Both the position numbers and the translations under genes were made by a program. The notes under the pieces are model-generated. The model was not told where the DNA came from. It worked only from the letters and a program-made list of their open reading frames with translations, and searched no databases. Shown here one piece after another: positions 3,069 to 20,147 of a stretch of DNA of 28,937 nucleotides (its first letter is position 1; each line of letters opens with the position of its first letter). The DNA lies in IMG/VR virus record IMGVR_UViG_3300031841_000233, positions 1 to 28,937 of that record. One strand, given 5' to 3'. The DNA is from a virus.

Positions 3069-3079
3069 TGTGGTACAAT
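3051..3079 (+). promoter_or_regulatory. Sigma70-like promoter at the 3' end of gp23
   Basis: GTGACA (3051-3056) and TACAAT (3074-3079) are separated by 17 bases, five of six matches to each bacterial consensus hexamer with ideal spacing. The -35 box lies within the last codons of gp23. A transcript would start near 3086 and meet the terminator at 3114-3138. This is a motif match only. Confidence 0.4.
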
Positions 3080-3085
3080 TAGTCT

Positions 3086-3138
3086 TCCGTGTGAAGGCTA
3101 CTCTGTGCTTACCGACCCCCGAAAGGGGGTCTTTTTTT
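3086..3138 (+). ncRNA. Possible short promoter-to-terminator RNA
   Basis: The interval between the predicted start point near 3086 and the end of the terminator T-run is about 53 bases and holds no plausible reading frame of its own. It could yield a small RNA whose 3' half is the terminator hairpin. A further dyad at 3081-3099 (AGTCTTC / GAAGGCT with a 5-base loop) straddles the predicted start. Alternatively the promoter is accidental, or it serves the HNH gene by read-through. No known RNA family was recognised. Confidence 0.25.
3114..3138 (+). terminator. Intrinsic terminator after gp23
   Basis: GACCCCC, loop GAAA and GGGGGTC form a perfect 7-bp G/C-rich stem, followed by seven T residues. 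It lies 46 bases after the gp23 stop and should end capsid transcription. The T-run overlaps the late promoter of the following gene. Confidence 0.9.
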
Positions 3139-3145
3139 ATAAATA
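3138..3145 (+). promoter_or_regulatory. Late promoter TATAAATA before the HNH gene
   Basis: A perfect match to the T4-type late promoter core TATAAATA begins at the last T of the gp23 terminator and lies 23 bases upstream of the ATG at 3169. It probably restarts late transcription for the HNH gene and possibly the tail gene after it. Confidence 0.65.
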
Positions 3146-3168
3146 AAGTTACCAACATAACGGTAACC

Positions 3169-3480
3169 ATGGTTAGAAAAAATCCATTAGAAAGAGCCGA
3201 ATACAATAGACGTAGAAGAGATAGAAGAAAAGACAAACTAGTGGAAATGTTTGGTAATAAGTGCCATGATTGTGGTGGAACATTTCACAAATGCGCCTAC
3301 GACTTTCACCATGTCAATCCAGAAGAAAAATCGTTCGCAATTGCACCTGGACTAGATCGTAACTGGGAAGTTATTCTAGAAGAAATCAACAAGTGTGTGA
3401 TGTTGTGTTCTAACTGTCATAGAGTTAGACATTATAGGGAAGATAGAGGTAACACTGAATTTGATAGTCTGCTGGTCTAA
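3169..3480 (+). CDS. Free-standing HNH endonuclease
   Basis: This 103-aa protein has an HNH nuclease domain. A zinc-binding pair CHDC (about residues 29-32) and CSNC (about 84-87) flank a DFHHVNP block that supplies the catalytic His pair, and the C-terminal NCHRVRH completes the fold. The N-terminus is very basic (RRRRDRRKD-like), suited to DNA binding. The frame is open back to 3070, but that would run through the gp23 terminator and late promoter, so the ATG at 3169 was chosen. Such small HNH genes are common homing endonucleases in T4-like phages, inserted between core genes. Its A/T-rich codon use contrasts with gp23. The target site is unknown. Confidence 0.87.
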   Translation: MVRKNPLERAEYNRRRRDRRKDKLVEMFGNKCHDCGGTFHKCAYDFHHVNPEEKSFAIAPGLDRNWEVILEEINKCVMLCSNCHRVRHYREDRGNTEFDSLLV

Positions 3481-10932: not shown

Positions 10933-13002
10933 ATGTCCATTCAAAACATCAAAGGTACTCTTGCACGTCTTCTGGCCACTGAGAATCTGATCGTAGAACA
11001 TAAGAAGTGTGAAACTGCTCAATTCAACGTTGAGACCCGTGTCTTGACTCTCCCTATCTGGGAAAACTTCTCTAACATTGTCTACGATCTTCTGGTTGGT
11101 CATGAAGTCGGTCATGCACTCTTCACACCTAACGAAGACTTCAGTAACCTCAAAGCTCCTCAGTCTTATCTAAACGTGACTGAAGATGCACGGATTGAGA
11201 AACTGATGAAACGAAAGTTTCCTGGACTAAACAAATCCTTTTACAAAGGATACAATGAGTTGATGGAGATGGATTTCTTTGATGTAAAAGATACCGACCT
11301 CTCCACCATCGGGTTGATTGATCGCATTAATCTTTACTTCAAAGGTAATCGCGACATTGAGTTTTCTTCCAAAGAACAACCTTTGGTTGATATGACTGGT
11401 AAGTCAGAAACTTTTGGTGAAGCTGTTGAAGCTGCAGAAGCCATCTATGCCTTTATGAAAGAAGAACAGGAACAAAAGAAAGAAGATAAACAAGATATTG
11501 AAGTTCCTCAGATGGGAAACCAGGGTGGTGGTTCTCCTTCCGAAACCGAAAGTGTTGATGCCGAAGAATCTGAACAGAAAGAAGAAGGTCAACCTCAACC
11601 TCAACAATCTCAAGGTGGCACTGCTGGTGGTGATCACTCAGATGAAGAGATCAATATTGATGATGTCTTGACCGATGAAAGTCTGCAGGAAAAACTGAAG
11701 GAGGCTGCAGCAAAGTATGGTATGGATTATCAATACTATGAAGTTCCTCAGGTCAATCTTGATACTGTGATTGTTTCAAACAAAGAAGTTTGGGATTGTG
11801 CATATGATTATTGGGAGGGACAAGATTACATCAACTTCTATGACCATAAGTATCAACAGTTCAAGAAAGATATTCAGAAAGAAGTCAACTATCTTGTCAA
11901 AGAGTTTGAATGTAAGAAGTCTGCAGATGCATATGCTCGTTCTTCTACTTCTCGTACTGGTGTCCTTGATACTACAAAGCTACATACCTACAAGTTCAAT
12001 GATGACCTTTTCAAGAAAGTGACAGTTCTGCCTGATGGTAAGAATCATGGTCTAATTTTCATTCTTGACTGGTCTGGTTCGATGGGTCATGTTCTTCAAG
12101 ACACTATCAAACAACTTTTGAGTTTGGTATTTTTCTGTCGCAAGGTCAAGATTCCTTTTGAGGTGTATAGCTTCACTAATGAGTGGTTCAAAGGTGATGA
12201 CACAGGAACCATGTATGGTGATCGCAGTCAGTGGAACACGACTCCTCATATGGAACCAGGTCAGGGTAAATTGTGTGTGAGTAAGTGGTTCAACCTTCTC
12301 AACATTCTGACTCACAAAGTCAATGCTCAGGATTTTGAACGTCAGTGCAGAGGTCTTTTTGCTCTTGGTTATGGTGTTTGGCCTAGTAAGTTGGGTCTGT
12401 CTGGTACTCCTTTGAATGAAGCTTTGATCTCTCTCCACACCATCATTCCTCACTTCAAGAAAGAGAATGGTGTTCAGAAACTTCATGTTTCTGTTCTCAC
12501 CGATGGTGAATCTGCAGGTGTTCCTTTCTTCTCTTGGATTGATCGTCCAGATGGTCAGAGTTATTGGGGAAACGTTCATACTCGGGAAGATGTTGGATTT
12601 ATTCGTAATCGCAAAAACGGTCATACCTATCAGATCACTGGTCGATATACTGGAATGACGAAATCTCTTCTTGATCATCTTAGTGATGTTTTCCCCGATG
12701 TGAATCTGATTGGATTCCGTTTGGTTGGTAGTGGTGATTTCAATCGATTCCTTGGTGCAATCAATCGTTGGCAAGATGCAGACTTGATCTCTGAGTTCCG
12801 TAAGAACAAGAGTGTGGCCATTGAAGGAACTGGTTATGTTAAGTATTTTGCGATGAACGCCAATTCCCTGAACAACAATGTAGACTTTGATGTACAGGAG
12901 GGTGCGAAAAAATCCACCATCCGCAGTGCGTTCAAGAAGTCTCTTGCAAACAAGAAACTGAACAAGAAAGTCCTGTCCCAATTCATCGAACTGGTTGCAT
13001 GA
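10933..13002 (+). CDS. CobT-like protein with HExxH and VWA (MIDAS) domains
   Basis: This 689-aa protein combines an N-terminal zinc-peptidase-like motif HEVGH (57-61), followed by a NVTEDARIE block (Glu84 a possible third ligand), an acidic Gln/Glu/Ser-rich linker (about 172-245) and a C-terminal von Willebrand A domain. The VWA domain shows the MIDAS motif D379-W-S381-G-S383 and a later T523-D524. This architecture resembles CobT, the VWA subunit of the aerobic cobaltochelatase, and other VWA partners of MoxR-type AAA+ ATPases. A CobS-like ATPase lies five genes downstream with the same leader motif, so they may act as a pair. Whether it is a protease, a chaperone-like remodeller or linked to cobalamin is not settled by the sequence. 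The stop overlaps the next ATG. Confidence 0.8.
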   Translation: MSIQNIKGTLARLLATENLIVEHKKCETAQFNVETRVLTLPIWENFSNIVYDLLVGHEVGHALFTPNEDFSNLKAPQSYLNVTEDARIEKLMKRKFPGLNKSFYKGYNELMEMDFFDVKDTDLSTIGLIDRINLYFKGNRDIEFSSKEQPLVDMTGKSETFGEAVEAAEAIYAFMKEEQEQKKEDKQDIEVPQMGNQGGGSPSETESVDAEESEQKEEGQPQPQQSQGGTAGGDHSDEEINIDDVLTDESLQEKLKEAAAKYGMDYQYYEVPQVNLDTVIVSNKEVWDCAYDYWEGQDYINFYDHKYQQFKKDIQKEVNYLVKEFECKKSADAYARSSTSRTGVLDTTKLHTYKFNDDLFKKVTVLPDGKNHGLIFILDWSGSMGHVLQDTIKQLLSLVFFCRKVKIPFEVYSFTNEWFKGDDTGTMYGDRSQWNTTPHMEPGQGKLCVSKWFNLLNILTHKVNAQDFERQCRGLFALGYGVWPSKLGLSGTPLNEALISLHTIIPHFKKENGVQKLHVSVLTDGESAGVPFFSWIDRPDGQSYWGNVHTREDVGFIRNRKNGHTYQITGRYTGMTKSLLDHLSDVFPDVNLIGFRLVGSGDFNRFLGAINRWQDADLISEFRKNKSVAIEGTGYVKYFAMNANSLNNNVDFDVQEGAKKSTIRSAFKKSLANKKLNKKVLSQFIELVA

Positions 13003-13529
13003 ACATTTTCGCTACTGATCAAAGTCCCCGTATTTCTGCTCGGGTTCTTCCTGACAAACACATTGTCAAAATGCCTCTAGAGAGTTGTCAGATGTTGGCT
13101 ATTATTTTCTCTAAGTGGTATTATGATTGGGGTACAATCAACAAACTTGATGGTACTCCTTACGCAACTGCAAAAGGTGCCTTTCGCAATCACCCTTGTA
13201 CTCAGTGGGCCGCACAAAATGTCTACAACACTGCATGGCTAATTGCACATGGAACTTCTCTTGCGTTTGAGTATTATCTTCGATACGGAAAAATTCATTC
13301 CTGTACCAAAACTTTGTTTGAAGCTAAAAAATTATTTCATCGTATGACTGGTGAGTCGATTACCTGTTATTCCATGGCAGATAATTTTGCCCGTGCCATG
13401 CCTGATGAATGGAAGTATGATGATAGTATAGATACATTTACTGCATACAAAAGGTACATCAATTCTAAGCCTTGGGTATCTGAAAATTATCTTCGTAATC
13501 CTGACCGTAAACCAGAGTGGATAAGTTAG
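12999..13529 (+). CDS. Conserved phage protein, 'MNIF...DKH.VKM' family
   Basis: This 176-aa protein belongs to a family I know from many phages, with M-N-I-F-x-x-D at the start, DKHIVKM (19-25), then a helix ending in ML, a central NHPCTQWA and NYxWL-like stretch, and a C-terminal FA-x-AMPDE-x-K followed by AY-x-x-Y. The pattern of His, Lys and Cys residues looks enzymatic, and I considered a distant relation to phage pyrimidine-dimer glycosylases, but the sequence does not prove it. It is coupled to the CobT-like gene by ATGA and overlaps the next frame by 13 bases. Confidence 0.75.
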   Translation: MNIFATDQSPRISARVLPDKHIVKMPLESCQMLAIIFSKWYYDWGTINKLDGTPYATAKGAFRNHPCTQWAAQNVYNTAWLIAHGTSLAFEYYLRYGKIHSCTKTLFEAKKLFHRMTGESITCYSMADNFARAMPDEWKYDDSIDTFTAYKRYINSKPWVSENYLRNPDRKPEWIS

Positions 13530-14017
13530 TTCGTCATTGTTATCAAAAAGGAAGTAAAGAGTGGAAGATCATCAAGACTGATGTTCTGAACTACCAACGT
13601 ATTCCTTATGACATCAATTGGATTCTTCAATATAGTCAGAAGATTCGGGACTGTTTGACTCCTGATCTTCTGACTAAGAAGTATCGAGAAGAGAATGCAA
13701 CTAATCCGATGTATGGTCATTGTTACCATGTAACTCAAGCCATGTTTTATTTTCTGGATACGGACACTCTTGTTCCACACAGAGGTAAAGACTGGAGAGG
13801 AGAAGACCACTGGTGGTTAAAAGACAGTCAGAATGGATTTATACTTGACGTTACGTCCGATCAGTACTATAGTATCGGGAAGGAACCACCTCACGACAAA
13901 GGGAAACCTGCGAAGTGGTATGGTTTCAAGGGTCGGGTTCATAAACGAACCATGGTCCTGATGCAACGAGTTCAAAAAGATCTTGCCTTTTTTGATCCAA
14001 CGTTGTATTTTATCTAA
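13517..14017 (+). CDS. Putative papain-like-fold protein (Cys-His-Asp triad)
   Basis: I do not recognise a named family for this 166-aa protein. It has a Cys at the start of a helix in GHCYHVTQA (C69), a His in EDHWWL (H98) and an Asp in ILDVTSDQY (D111, or D115). That order and spacing, with the 'LD.T..Q' ending, is typical of papain-like or transglutaminase-like folds. It could be a peptidase, amidase or acyltransferase. The GTG at 13517 overlaps the previous stop and starts the frame; a later start would lose only basic N-terminal residues. Neighbours are an unknown conserved gene and an SF2 ATPase. Confidence 0.6.
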   Translation: MDKLVRHCYQKGSKEWKIIKTDVLNYQRIPYDINWILQYSQKIRDCLTPDLLTKKYREENATNPMYGHCYHVTQAMFYFLDTDTLVPHRGKDWRGEDHWWLKDSQNGFILDVTSDQYYSIGKEPPHDKGKPAKWYGFKGRVHKRTMVLMQRVQKDLAFFDPTLYFI

Positions 14018-14034
14018 ACAATCCCACAAAATTC

Positions 14035-15615
14035 GTGTCATCCACTAATCCGAACGAAATCCGTGAGAAATGGCTCATTGAGCCCTTCATGTCATTCCTA
14101 AACAAGAGTCTTGAAGACTCTGATCGTGGTTCCTACAAGGAAAAAATCAAGGTTCTTCAAGCCCCAACTGGTTTTGGTAAAACCTATTCCACAACCAATA
14201 CTTTCATTCCTCGTCTTTTTGAGGACATTGATATCGTTGTTTATGTAGCCCCAAACACCGAAAACATTGCCAGTGATGCTTTTAAAATTGCTGGCGGTAA
14301 ACATGGTTACATGTTTTCGCGGGATGTAAATGAATCAATTCGTTTTGTCAAACAGGGTCAAAAAGTAGTTCTTGCACTGACCTGGGCTTCACTTTCCAAT
14401 TCTTCTAATAAGTGTAAAAAAGAACGCGAGAATCTTCTTCAATTTACATCTCGTTCCGCTTGGTTTATCGAAGAGTGTCACTCTTGGTTAGGTGTAACTG
14501 CACAAGAATATTATCTTGATGTAATTGGTCATGCCACTCCACAGTACAACGGAACCGCATACAAAACTCTTACTGAGGTTCTGAAAAAAACAGATCTGGT
14601 ATTTGGTGTTACTGCAACCACTACGAAACAACATCGTGGAATTGTTGGTGATGATTGTTTTGTGGTTCTTAATGAGTGGTGCCCTGTAAAAGAACGTCGG
14701 TGGTTGACAAAGTGGTCTGCATCATATGAAAAGTATGAAGGATACATTCCTGAATATCGGCCTAGTAGTCGAAAAACGGTAGATGTTCTAGATCAAGAGG
14801 AAGCTCTTTTTCAACTTGATAAGTATGTCGTCGAACATCACATCGCAAATATTTCTCAACTGAATCGACTGAAAACCTTCGATCGTCGAATCGTCTCAAA
14901 ACTGTCATCGTTGATCGTTTGTGGTGGAGAAAATAATAATCGACTTTCTATTCACGTTGATGATGCTCGTGAAGAATTGTCTGAAATTCTGGCTAGAAAC
15001 GGTTATGCTATTCCTGGTCAATGGATAGCTGTGATGACCGATAATCATAAAGGATTCTATGATCTTGCGGGGAACTTTTCCTCTTCTAATGAAGATGAGA
15101 TCATCGCATCTCTGAATGATGAAGAATCTGATTGTCAGTTTCTACTTGTCAACAACAAAGGAACCGCTGGTATTGATGTATTCAACCTTACTGGTACATG
15201 TTCTCTTCGCATTCGAGCTCCAAAGACCGCAGATTGCACACAACTTTCGCGTCAAATCATTGGTCGATTGACCCGTCTCAACTCTGGTCATGGTTCCATT
15301 CTAAAGAATGAATATGACTATGATTTGCAGAAAATGTGTGATGAATACTGTGATGAGTATGATGTCAACCCTCAAGTATTCTATGAAACTGTGAAGATTG
15401 CCAATACTTTCAAGTTTGTTTATCCCAGCACCCCTAATGATCACTGGGAAATGGCTCAGGATGAGTTCAACTCTGATTACACATCGACTTTCAATGATGT
15501 AAAAGATGAACTTCGGTCCATGGTTTTTGGTAAGACTCTTTGTTCCAATTGCCCTCTTCTGGTAACAGGGAGGAACTTCACCCCCATCGAACTGGCCCTT
15601 GGAATTGTAGAGTGA
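14035..15615 (+). CDS. Divergent SF2 helicase/ATPase
   Basis: This 526-aa protein shows the SF2 motifs in order: Walker A APTGFGKT (43-50), an altered DExH box reading EECH (146-149), VTATTT (motif III, from 192) and SRQIIGRLTR (motif VI, 405-414). The GTAGIDVF block before motif VI fits motif V. The core resembles type III restriction or DEAD/DEAH helicases. It is distinct from UvsW and has no visible nuclease domain; a CSNC pair near the C-terminus may bind a metal. The start is the GTG at 14035, which lacks a good Shine-Dalgarno sequence; the first in-frame ATG is at residue 19. Its role is not known, though such a gene accompanies the CobT/CobS-like genes here. Confidence 0.8.
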   Translation: MSSTNPNEIREKWLIEPFMSFLNKSLEDSDRGSYKEKIKVLQAPTGFGKTYSTTNTFIPRLFEDIDIVVYVAPNTENIASDAFKIAGGKHGYMFSRDVNESIRFVKQGQKVVLALTWASLSNSSNKCKKERENLLQFTSRSAWFIEECHSWLGVTAQEYYLDVIGHATPQYNGTAYKTLTEVLKKTDLVFGVTATTTKQHRGIVGDDCFVVLNEWCPVKERRWLTKWSASYEKYEGYIPEYRPSSRKTVDVLDQEEALFQLDKYVVEHHIANISQLNRLKTFDRRIVSKLSSLIVCGGENNNRLSIHVDDAREELSEILARNGYAIPGQWIAVMTDNHKGFYDLAGNFSSSNEDEIIASLNDEESDCQFLLVNNKGTAGIDVFNLTGTCSLRIRAPKTADCTQLSRQIIGRLTRLNSGHGSILKNEYDYDLQKMCDEYCDEYDVNPQVFYETVKIANTFKFVYPSTPNDHWEMAQDEFNSDYTSTFNDVKDELRSMVFGKTLCSNCPLLVTGRNFTPIELALGIVE

Positions 15616-15632
15616 CAATCTAGTGGCTGTCC

Positions 15633-15659
15633 ACCCTCCTGTCGCCAGGGGGGTTTTTT
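15633..15659 (+). terminator. Intrinsic terminator after the SF2 gene
   Basis: ACCCTCCTG, loop TCGC and CAGGGGGGT form a 9-bp stem with one G-T pair, followed by TTTTT. It lies 18 bases after the stop and directly upstream of the second shared leader motif. Confidence 0.85.
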
Positions 15660-15663
15660 CATG

Positions 15664-15681
15664 TATATTATATACATACAC
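15664..15681 (+). promoter_or_regulatory. Shared leader motif, copy B (before the CobS-like gene)
   Basis: TATATT (15664-15669), three bases, then TACATACAC (15673-15681), with the same internal spacing as copy A at 10904-10921 and followed in both by AAG...GACA.CC(A)AATG-like text. Here it also contains an inverted repeat ATGTATA-TTA-TATACAT (15661-15677). GGGAG at 15685-15689 is the ribosome binding site of the next gene. Confidence 0.5.
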
Positions 15682-15698
15682 AAAGGGAGACAACCCAA

Positions 15699-16751
15699 AT
15701 GACCACGGCCATCATTGATTCACTTCGCGATGCATACGGTGAACAGATCACTGCGGCTGACGTTCGTGCTTATTGTGCCATGAATGGTGTTTCGTATCCC
15801 ACTGTCACCAAGAAACTGGAACAGTTCAAAGTCAAACGTGGGACTTGGAATCTCACGATTCAAGAGGTTCGTCAACAACTGGAAAAATCTGTAGATACAC
15901 TGGAATACGTTCAACAATCTCTGATCCCTCAGAAGGATTCCAACTTCGTTCAGTTTGGTAACTTCAAGGATCTGAAAAACATCATCGGATCTCGTTCGTT
16001 CTTCCCTGTCTTCATCACTGGTCTGTCAGGAAACGGTAAGACCATGGGTGTTGAACAGTCCTGCGCTCAACTAAATAGGGAGTTGATTCGCGTCAATATC
16101 ACCATTGAAACCGACGAGGATGACCTTATTGGTGGCTTCCGTCTTGTTGATGGGAACACTGTTTGGCATAATGGACCCGTTATCGAAGCTCTGGAAAGGG
16201 GAGCTGTGTTGCTTCTAGACGAGATTGATCTTGCATCTAACAAGATTCTCTGTCTGCAATCTGTTCTGGAAGGTAAAGGTGTTTTCCTGAAAAAGATTGG
16301 TAAGTATGTCAAACCTGCACCTGGGTTCACTGTAGTTGCAACTGCAAATACCAAGGGTAAGGGTTCTGACGACGGTCGTTTCATCGGAACCAATGTTCTC
16401 AACGAAGCTTTCCTGGAACGATTCCCGATCACCTTTGAACAGTCTTATCCCACTTCTGCTACTGAAGCTAAGATCCTCAGTAAGATTTGTGATGATGATA
16501 GTTTCGTTTCTCACCTGGTTGATTGGGCCGACATCATCCGTAAGACCTTCTACGATGGTGGTGTTGATGAAGTGATCTCGACTCGTCGTCTTGTTCACAT
16601 TGTTCAGGCTTTCAACATCTTTGGTGATAAACTGAAGTCGATCCAAGTTTGTCTGAATCGTTTCGATGATGAAACCAAACAGGCCTTCATGGATCTCTAC
16701 GACAAAGTTGACGCAGACATTGACATGAACCCTGATGACAGTGTACAATGA
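15699..16751 (+). CDS. cobS: CobS-like AAA+ ATPase (MoxR/CobS type)
   Basis: This 350-aa protein is the AAA+ ATPase annotated as CobS in T4-like cyanophages. Seen: Walker A GLSGNGKT (108-115), Walker B LLLDEID (D174-E175), sensor 1 ATANT (N217), and FLERF with a likely arginine finger (R241). The N-terminal 60 residues look like a small helical DNA- or protein-binding domain. In bacteria, CobS with CobT and CobN inserts cobalt into the corrin ring. A CobT-like partner lies at 10933, but no CobN is in the window, so a MoxR-type remodelling role is an equally good reading. The stop overlaps the next ATG (ATGA). Confidence 0.88.
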   Translation: MTTAIIDSLRDAYGEQITAADVRAYCAMNGVSYPTVTKKLEQFKVKRGTWNLTIQEVRQQLEKSVDTLEYVQQSLIPQKDSNFVQFGNFKDLKNIIGSRSFFPVFITGLSGNGKTMGVEQSCAQLNRELIRVNITIETDEDDLIGGFRLVDGNTVWHNGPVIEALERGAVLLLDEIDLASNKILCLQSVLEGKGVFLKKIGKYVKPAPGFTVVATANTKGKGSDDGRFIGTNVLNEAFLERFPITFEQSYPTSATEAKILSKICDDDSFVSHLVDWADIIRKTFYDGGVDEVISTRRLVHIVQAFNIFGDKLKSIQVCLNRFDDETKQAFMDLYDKVDADIDMNPDDSVQ

Positions 16752-18055: not shown

Positions 18056-18999
18056 ATCGTAACGACTTTCTTTGGGTTGAAAAGTATCGTCCGAAGGTTG
18101 TTGAAGATTGTATCCTGCCTGAGTCTACTCTCAAGACTTTTCAGGATTTTCTAAACTCTGGTGAAATTCCCAACCTCCTTCTCTCTGGTCCCGCAGGTTG
18201 TGGTAAGACAACAATTGCTCGTGCATTGTGTGAAGAACTGGGGGCCGATTACATCATCATTAATGGATCCGATGAAGGACGATTTCTGGACACTGTACGG
18301 AACACAGCGAAGAACTTTGCTTCGACCGTCTCTCTTTCTGCTGACGCGAAACACAAAGTCATCATTATTGACGAAGCTGATAACACAACCCACGACGTAC
18401 AACTCCTCCTACGGGCGAATATTGAGGCATTTTATAACAACTGCCGATTCATCTTCACCTGTAACTACAAAAACAAAATTATTGAACCCCTCCACAGTCG
18501 ATGTGCCTGTGTGGAGTTCTCAATCACAGGAAAACAAAAGCCTCAACTCGCAGCAAAGTTCTTCAAACGCATCCAAGAAATCCTGGGTGCAGAAGGTGTT
18601 GAATATGATAACAAGGTCCTGGTAGAACTGATCAACAAACACTTCCCCGATTACCGTCGTGTACTGAATGAGTGCCAACGATATTCTGTTGGTGGTAAGA
18701 TTGACAGTGCAATCCTTGCAGAGTTCTCTGATGTAAAAGTAAATGATCTCCTTAAGTTCCTTAAAGAAAAAGATTTTGCAGAAGTACGACGTTGGGTCGT
18801 TAATAATTTGGACAATGATCCTAGTGTACTTCTTCGGCGTGTTTATGATGCTCTTAACGGCACCCTTGAAGGCCCTTCTGTTGCTGCTGCCGTGCTTATT
18901 ATTGCTAAGTATCAGTACCAGATCGCTTTCGTCGCAGATCAGGAAATCAATCTCCTCGCGGCGTTGACTGAAATTATGGTGGAGTGTAACTTCAAATGA
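18052..18999 (+). CDS. gp44: Clamp loader large subunit gp44
   Basis: gp44 is the AAA+ ATPase that, with gp62, loads the gp45 clamp on primed DNA. Motifs: LWVEKYRP near the N-terminus (7-14), Walker A GPAGCGKT (46-53), DEAD (107-110), sensor 1 TCNY and SRC (arginine finger motif), then a helical collar. The length of 315 aa matches T4's 319. ATG at 18052 overlaps the preceding stop (ATGA), and the next gene begins at its own stop. Confidence 0.96.
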   Translation: MNRNDFLWVEKYRPKVVEDCILPESTLKTFQDFLNSGEIPNLLLSGPAGCGKTTIARALCEELGADYIIINGSDEGRFLDTVRNTAKNFASTVSLSADAKHKVIIIDEADNTTHDVQLLLRANIEAFYNNCRFIFTCNYKNKIIEPLHSRCACVEFSITGKQKPQLAAKFFKRIQEILGAEGVEYDNKVLVELINKHFPDYRRVLNECQRYSVGGKIDSAILAEFSDVKVNDLLKFLKEKDFAEVRRWVVNNLDNDPSVLLRRVYDALNGTLEGPSVAAAVLIIAKYQYQIAFVADQEINLLAALTEIMVECNFK

Positions 19000-20147
19000 T
19001 GTTAAGTGAAAGTGATGCAGTATATGCTGCAGACAAATTCATCAATTACTTTTCCAACATGGATCGTATTGATGAGTATCTTCGTAATGTAAAGATTGAG
19101 AGGGTTCTCAATCGTAGCCCTCTTTCTCAGTTCTATGAGGAAGAGGATACTCATGGGATGTTTACTGCATTCGATATGCATCCTGAAGAGATGGACATTG
19201 TTTGTTATGAAGCCAAAGATCTGAAGAAAGTTTCTGGTCGGGTCTCTGGTATCCGATCTGTCAAGGAGTTCAATGAAAAACTTCAGATCACTACGTCTCA
19301 CGCAATTGAAGATTCCGTTCCTGGGAAATCTCTCAAGTGGATGGTCGTGGAAAAGAACACCAATACGATTCTTGGTTTCTGTCGGTTTGGTTCCCCTACA
19401 ATTAACTCTAGACCTCGCAATCTATGGCTTGGTACGACTCCTGATCTCAACATCTTCAACAGACATGCGATCATGGGGTTTATTATCGTACCTACGCAGC
19501 CTTTTGGCTATAATTACTTGGGTGGTAAGTTGCTTGCGATGTTGTGTTGTACGCATGAGGTCAGGGAGATTCTGAACGCAAAGTACGATGCAAATATTTG
19601 TCACTTTGAAACCACTTCACTCTATGGTTCTACAAAGAGTGCATCTCAATATGATGGTCTCAAACCGATCATGCGATATAAGGGTCTGACTGATAGTAAC
19701 TTCACTCCTCTTCTTCATGATCATATCTTCAAGGATCTGAATCAGTGGTTCATTGAACGTAATGGTGGTGAATCTTTGGTCAAAGCTGATGCGTCTAGTC
19801 GCAAACTGAAGACACAACAGAAGATGATTGCAACGATCAAAAAGTGTCTTCCTGCAGATAAGGTTCAAGAGTTTGTTGATGCAATCGCTGGTGCTACTGC
19901 ATTGACTGAGAAGAAACGCACATACTTCTCCGATTATGGTTTTGCAAACACCCGTGAGGTTCTTCTTGGTGAAGATACTGAATTGGTTGAGAATCCTCAG
20001 AACTATGAAAAGTTCTACATGGAAAATGTAGTTGCAAAATGGAAGAAGATGGCCACAAAACGTTACAACAAACTCAAGTCTGAAGGTAACCTCCGCACAG
20101 AACTTGAGGTTTGGACCAAAGATATGGAGATTGATATTATTCGATAA
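18996..20147 (+). CDS. DUF4338 (DruA-like) domain protein
   Basis: This 383-aa protein carries a domain (about 125-245) with LGFCRFGSPT, then GFIIVPTQPFGYNYLGGKLLAM, a CCTHEVR helix, KYD..ICHFETTSLYGS and YDGLK..MRYKGLT. Family DUF4338, which includes DruA of the Druantia anti-phage system, has the same order: 'NtRFLI..w....LAS..L......W...YG....LLETFV...G..Y'. The match is from memory and imperfect, but GKLL/ETTSLYG is a clear family-style signature in phages. It sits between gp44 and gp62, where T4 has none. The C-terminal third is basic and helical. It starts on an ATGA overlap with gp44 and shares one base with the next gene. Function unknown. Confidence 0.65.
   Translation: MMLSESDAVYAADKFINYFSNMDRIDEYLRNVKIERVLNRSPLSQFYEEEDTHGMFTAFDMHPEEMDIVCYEAKDLKKVSGRVSGIRSVKEFNEKLQITTSHAIEDSVPGKSLKWMVVEKNTNTILGFCRFGSPTINSRPRNLWLGTTPDLNIFNRHAIMGFIIVPTQPFGYNYLGGKLLAMLCCTHEVREILNAKYDANICHFETTSLYGSTKSASQYDGLKPIMRYKGLTDSNFTPLLHDHIFKDLNQWFIERNGGESLVKADASSRKLKTQQKMIATIKKCLPADKVQEFVDAIAGATALTEKKRTYFSDYGFANTREVLLGEDTELVENPQNYEKFYMENVVAKWKKMATKRYNKLKSEGNLRTELEVWTKDMEIDIIR

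Follow-up and report, generated by a model that had tools for sequence, protein, structure and literature searches.

The stretch of DNA analysed here (the window, 28,937 nucleotides) is the 28.9-kb virus contig IMGVR_UViG_3300031841_000233. It comes from a T4-like cyanophage. By megablast it matches Synechococcus phage S-CAM9 at 94% identity over 98% of its length, and a second T4-like cyanophage, S-PRM1, at 98% over 73%. The gene order is that of S-CAM9: UvsW, late sigma factor, gp47, gp46, a CobT-like gene, three genes, and a CobS-like gene, followed downstream by sliding clamp, clamp loader, RegA, Hsp20, and DNA polymerase. The features of the CobT-like to CobS-like region are given in Table 1.

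Table 1. Features of the CobT-like to CobS-like region, in positions of the window
Feature	Position	Strand	Remarks
CobT-like protein P0001, 689 aa	10933..13002	+	N-terminal zincin-like domain, acidic linker, C-terminal VWA domain
HEVGH, residues 57-61	11101..11115	+	within predicted helix 48-64 (AlphaFold)
N81-x-x-E84-D85-x-R87-I-E89	11173..11199	+	predicted helix 77-95 (AlphaFold)
Acidic linker, residues 190-237	11500..11643	+	low confidence, pLDDT below 50
MIDAS DWSGS, residues 379-383	12067..12081	+	present in 74/74 homologues
Remaining MIDAS residues T492 and D524	12406-12408, 12502-12504	+	invariant, D524-G525 included
Inserted gene 1, pyrimidine-dimer DNA glycosylase-like	12999..13529	+	PF03013, E 1.7e-11
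Inserted gene 2, PHROG_12251	13517..14017	+	function not assigned
Inserted gene 3, weak SF2 helicase / ResIII match	14035..15615	+	PF04851, E 0.002, below cut-off
CobS-like MoxR-clade AAA+ ATPase P0002, 350 aa	15699..16751	+	PHROG_249, E 2e-138
Walker A GLSGNGKT, residues 108-115	16020..16043	+	invariant in homologues
Walker B LLLDEID, residues 171-177	16209..16229	+	invariant in homologues except I176
Candidate arginine finger R241	16419..16421	+	invariant in homologues

The CobT-like protein falls in PHROG_459, which carries the label 'peptidase' (E 1e-254). A Pfam search gave no significant match for it, leaving remote similarity as the basis of the CobT name. The CobT families PF06213 and PF11775 do not match it either, and the link to them is via intermediates only. 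The AlphaFold model has a mean pLDDT of 83.9. In this predicted structure helix 48-64 is followed by helix 77-95, which is the motif order expected of a gluzincin, with HExxH in a helix and a conserved acidic residue on the next predicted helix. From the alignment and the model, E84 (or D85) is a candidate for the third zinc ligand. Unlike known gluzincin metallopeptidases, the protein is without a significant family or structure match, and its peptidase activity is putative. Among the curated peptidase families none was significant (best MPTase-PolyVal, E 0.07, and HEXXH_Rv0185, E 0.014), and a sequence search of solved structures with the whole protein or its N-terminal domain found no significant zincin relative. 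The N-terminal domain was not picked up in the fold search, where the matches listed are to the VWA domain. The best of these is NorD, from NorQ-NorD complexes, and the MIDAS domain of MDN1/midasin is among the top matches. The MIDAS is complete (D379-W-S381-G-S383, T492, and D524-G525).

The CobS-like protein is a CbbQ/NorQ/CobS-type AAA+ ATPase. It matches Pfam AAA_5 (E 2e-18), and its modelled structure has CbbQ and NorQ as best matches in the fold search. Its PHROG carries the label 'porphyrin biosynthesis'. Against TIGR01650 it scores 77.6 bits, far under the cut-off of 558.6. A small helical/beta domain (about residues 1-52) forms the N-terminus. Other motifs are the sensor-like A214-T218 and R296-R297, and the motif residues are nearly all invariant. 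Thus, an AAA_5-type ATPase with intact Walker motifs is linked to a VWA protein with a complete MIDAS, as in MoxR-clade AAA+/VWA pairs.

Pairing of the two genes

The two genes are consistently found together. Among IMG/VR loci flanked by 4 kb or more, a downstream CobS gene was found for 34/34 CobT-like loci and an upstream CobT-like gene for 35/35 CobS loci, always on the same strand. In the phage collection both proteins matched equal numbers of records (365 for Synechococcus, 61 for Cyanophage, and 24 for Prochlorococcus phage), the equality being one of record numbers per group and not of record-by-record overlap. This pairing in cyanophages is already published. According to that report, cobST is widespread among tailed viruses and belongs to the core genes of cyanophages (PMC8651126).

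The three genes between them are an unusual, local insertion. A gap of more than 1.2 kb was found in only 13 of the 126 loci that have both genes, and the median gap is about 340 bases. The start of the first inserted gene overlaps the stop of the cobT-like gene. A sequence-only reading of this DNA had described HEVGH and a MIDAS in a 689-aa protein, AAA+ motifs in a second protein, and three genes separating the two. All of these were found again where it had placed them, with exactly three genes in between, and the co-occurrence across cyanophages that it had proposed to check is borne out by the counts above.

CobS-like ATPases were also seen in phages of Gram-positive hosts, namely Staphylococcus, Lactobacillus, Mycobacterium, and Microbacterium (L138, L141, L142, and L144). 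No neighbour with HExxH plus MIDAS was found at these loci within the stretch read, and they were left out of the comparison.

The HExxH site and its spread on mobile elements

The HExxH motif is present in 71/71 non-redundant homologues having residues at the site. In an alignment of 88 sequences, H57, E58, and H61 are invariant at a mean column identity of 33%. Thus, the motif is not there by chance. Seven columns (H57, E58, H61, N81, E84, D85, and I88) show no variation in an alignment of 27 N-terminal domains. These domains come, among other sources, from phages of Ochrobactrum, Pelagibacter, and Gordonia, from an SSU5-type phage-plasmid, and from two plasmids, one IncC and one of Flagellatimonas. 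HExxH is also found in a Rhizobium phage relative and, in bacterial genomes, in four CobT relatives with low scores. With the phage-plasmid protein as query, a plasmid search matched 1849 plasmid records; the Ochrobactrum protein matched none. There are phage or plasmid proteins in which the motif is degenerate and the gene pair is kept, with QEVAK in Acinetobacter, SEISK in a Pseudomonas phage, and REVST in a Stenotrophomonas phage. Proteolysis is therefore not essential to the whole family.

The genes around the pair were explored in these relatives. In Rhizobium, Pseudomonas, and Stenotrophomonas phages the pair adjoins genes for primase, ligase, DNA polymerase III, a recombinase, or a sigma factor. 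The phages of Ochrobactrum and Pelagibacter have it between gp46/47 and the clamp. The relative on a MOBH conjugative plasmid adjoins bet and exonuclease genes.

Several other arrangements were observed. On IncC and other plasmids a DUF3150 gene is next to or near the HExxH/VWA gene (L172:5666-8824, L178:3642-6797, and L179:4887-9601), and in L178 the HExxH/VWA gene is also near bet and lambda-exonuclease genes. Pseudoalteromonas phage XG4 (L146:5851-8108) has a split CobT-like protein, with a VWA ORF followed by a separate HExxH ORF, both in PHROG_459. The 188-kb contig NZ_RMVE01000006 (L154), whose assigned source is the flavobacterium strain Nonlabens xiamenensis, contains a cyanophage-like CobT gene, and similar phage-type genes are present in several MAGs.

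Relation to cobaltochelatase and cobalamin

The gene pair is the same as that of the viral cobST cluster described previously, where the peptidase label of cobT was called a mistake and cobT was treated as a cobaltochelatase (PMC8651126). The sequence suggests that the label was not a mistake, with a zincin motif that is intact and conserved here, unlike in cobaltochelatase-type CobT. HExxH stands at the aligned site in 0/30 cobaltochelatase-type CobT proteins, chosen for their high Pfam CobT scores in one phylum-level sample of proteobacterial genomes; one of them has an HExxH string elsewhere. No report of this contrast between phage and cobaltochelatase CobT was found in the open-licence literature.

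The two groups do appear to be related. Profile comparison joined the cyanophage protein to mobile-element CobT (98.7%, E 2e-16) and mobile-element CobT to cobaltochelatase-type CobT (100%, E 6e-40). Over the N-terminal domain there is no direct profile link between the cyanophage protein and cobaltochelatase-type CobT, and the link runs through mobile-element CobT. Three Pfam CobT matches fall inside the N-terminal domain alignment itself. In a tree of 43 proteins HExxH needs three changes, compared with 14.6 in shuffles; the motif label of the tree is a text pattern that misses HECYH of ICP2. The cobaltochelatase-type group forms a single clade without HExxH in this tree. The tree is unrooted and has many long branches; it shows that the motif clusters, but not which way it changed. 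The zincin site is best read as having decayed in cobaltochelatase CobT. The absence of the motif there comes from the alignment, and loss would be the simplest reading of its direction.

The aerobic cobaltochelatase CobN-CobS-CobT also has AAA+ and VWA subunits, and mobile-element CobT provides the remote homology to it. It differs from the phage pair in that no CobN was found with the pair and the phage CobS is far below the family cut-off. It also has no HExxH, whereas the phage protein has this motif and lacks a Pfam CobT match. CobN is not annotated in S-CAM9, read over nearly its whole length, and tblastn gave no CobN match in the S-CAM9 stretches, the window, or the other phage loci examined. 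The sequence-only reading had stated that CobN is absent from the window and that HExxH is no part of a standard cobaltochelatase. Both statements are supported, and no CobN was found in the nearest complete phage genome, S-CAM9, over the stretches covered.

The main rival explanation is that viral CobS and the CobT-like protein are replacement motor subunits for host CobN that raise cobalamin during infection (PMC8651126). A partner for the phage proteins does exist. Of 151 genomes from the family to which a Prochlorococcus genome belongs, 147 have a CobN match of any kind and 130 have one above cut-off, while Pfam CobT is found in 0/151 and CobS in only one, on a phage-type contig. The phage proteins are also remote relatives of CobS and CobT. 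Against this explanation stands the HExxH motif, which never varies in the phage branch and which cobaltochelatase-type CobT lacks. Related pairs are, in addition, present in hosts without corrin synthesis. Enterobacteria harbour the SSU5-type pair and the IncC protein, and since Escherichia coli does not make the corrin ring, cobalt insertion there is unlikely. Finally, S-CAM9 annotates both large and small ribonucleotide reductase subunits, which points to a class I composition that would not need B12. A role as replacement subunits for CobN is considered unlikely. The same host genomes, with no CobT and with CobS only on a phage-type contig, suggest that the pair probably came from elsewhere than these hosts, and the label 'host-derived' for cobS is doubtful.

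A putative remodelling machine

MoxR-type motors with VWA adaptors have been described as remodelling protein complexes (PMC7159879). The best reading of the two genes, held with moderate confidence, is that they encode a MoxR-VWA remodelling machine with a fused and probably active zincin. The CobS-like protein would form a MoxR-type AAA+ ring, as its family and fold suggest. The CobT-like protein may dock on this ring through its MIDAS-bearing VWA domain, by analogy with NorQ-NorD and midasin. The HExxH helix and the E/D helix that follows it probably bind zinc, and the zincin domain probably cuts or clips a protein substrate that ATP-driven remodelling would hand to it. Judged by gene order, a likely work site is the replication, recombination, or late-transcription apparatus, since several unrelated elements have the pair in the midst of such genes. 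Replication or recombination neighbours were seen in T4-like, Pseudomonas, Stenotrophomonas, and Rhizobium phages as well as in the MOBH conjugative plasmid. The sequence-only reading had considered a phage-specific remodelling or maturation machine to be as likely as cobalamin salvage. Remodelling does appear to be at least as likely as cobalamin metabolism. That the machine would be phage-specific is not supported, since IncC and other plasmids also carry relatives with HExxH, as do bacterial genomes. Head maturation was not upheld either, and a T4-type prohead or head maturation protease was rejected because S-CAM9 annotates a separate one.

Known systems resemble this machine in part. The NorQ-NorD and CbbQ-type MoxR/VWA activases, whose targets are cellular enzymes, are the best structural matches of both phage proteins, but the matches indicate no zincin domain in them. 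VMAP and other MoxR-vWA ternary conflict systems share the MoxR plus vWA core (PMC7159879). Unlike in those systems, no third VMAP-type component was identified with the phage pair, and the HExxH and VWA domains are joined in one protein. A role as a defence system was also considered, and PADLOC gave no meaningful match.

The pair could instead be a chaperone of the MoxR-VWA type without proteolysis, its HExxH domain having a structural role or binding only metal or substrate. Midasin, the Cox/Mox activases, and other such MoxR-VWA pairs have been described as factors in assembly (PMC7159879). In fold, the nearest match is NorQ-NorD, and members with a degenerate HExxH persist. However, the predicted catalytic E58 is as invariant as both histidines in the cyanophage branch and beyond, and binding alone would need no such glutamate. 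A chaperone without proteolysis is judged quite improbable. Tuning of host magnesium chelatase (ChlH with ChlI/ChlD) by the pair, and hence of chlorophyll or tetrapyrrole flux, is a very remote prospect. In its favour, that enzyme has an AAA+/VWA motor of the same kind (PMC7159879), and the hosts are photosynthetic. Against it, related pairs are found in phages of Gordonia, Ochrobactrum, Pseudomonas, and Rhizobium, bacteria that do not generally make chlorophyll, and the HExxH motif would be left unexplained.

The remodelling machine with a zincin bears on how cobS is classified. This gene is one of 25 reported as core to T4-like cyanophages (PMC3037559). In ocean surveys it is listed as a B12 gene, and whether cyanophage cobS serves cobalamin production in infected cells has been called unknown (PMC9983427). 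If the partner of CobS is the metalloprotease of a remodelling machine, the B12 assignment of cobS changes, and a core cyanophage function may have been mis-assigned. More tentatively, it is possible that a widespread AAA+/VWA/active-zincin machine of mobile elements cuts or disassembles protein complexes on DNA while replication or recombination proceeds, and that cobaltochelatase CobS and CobT descend from it by loss of the protease site. If so, the 'vitamin B12' core gene of cyanophages would not be metabolic.

Two further genes in the window were observed. A DruA-like protein (PF14236, E 8e-10; 18996-20147) is encoded between the clamp loader subunit genes, and its namesake is a component of the Druantia defence system. 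Immediately after the major capsid gene is a small ORF (3070-3480) with no Pfam match below 0.01. It has an HNH-like Cys/His pattern and is possibly a homing endonuclease.
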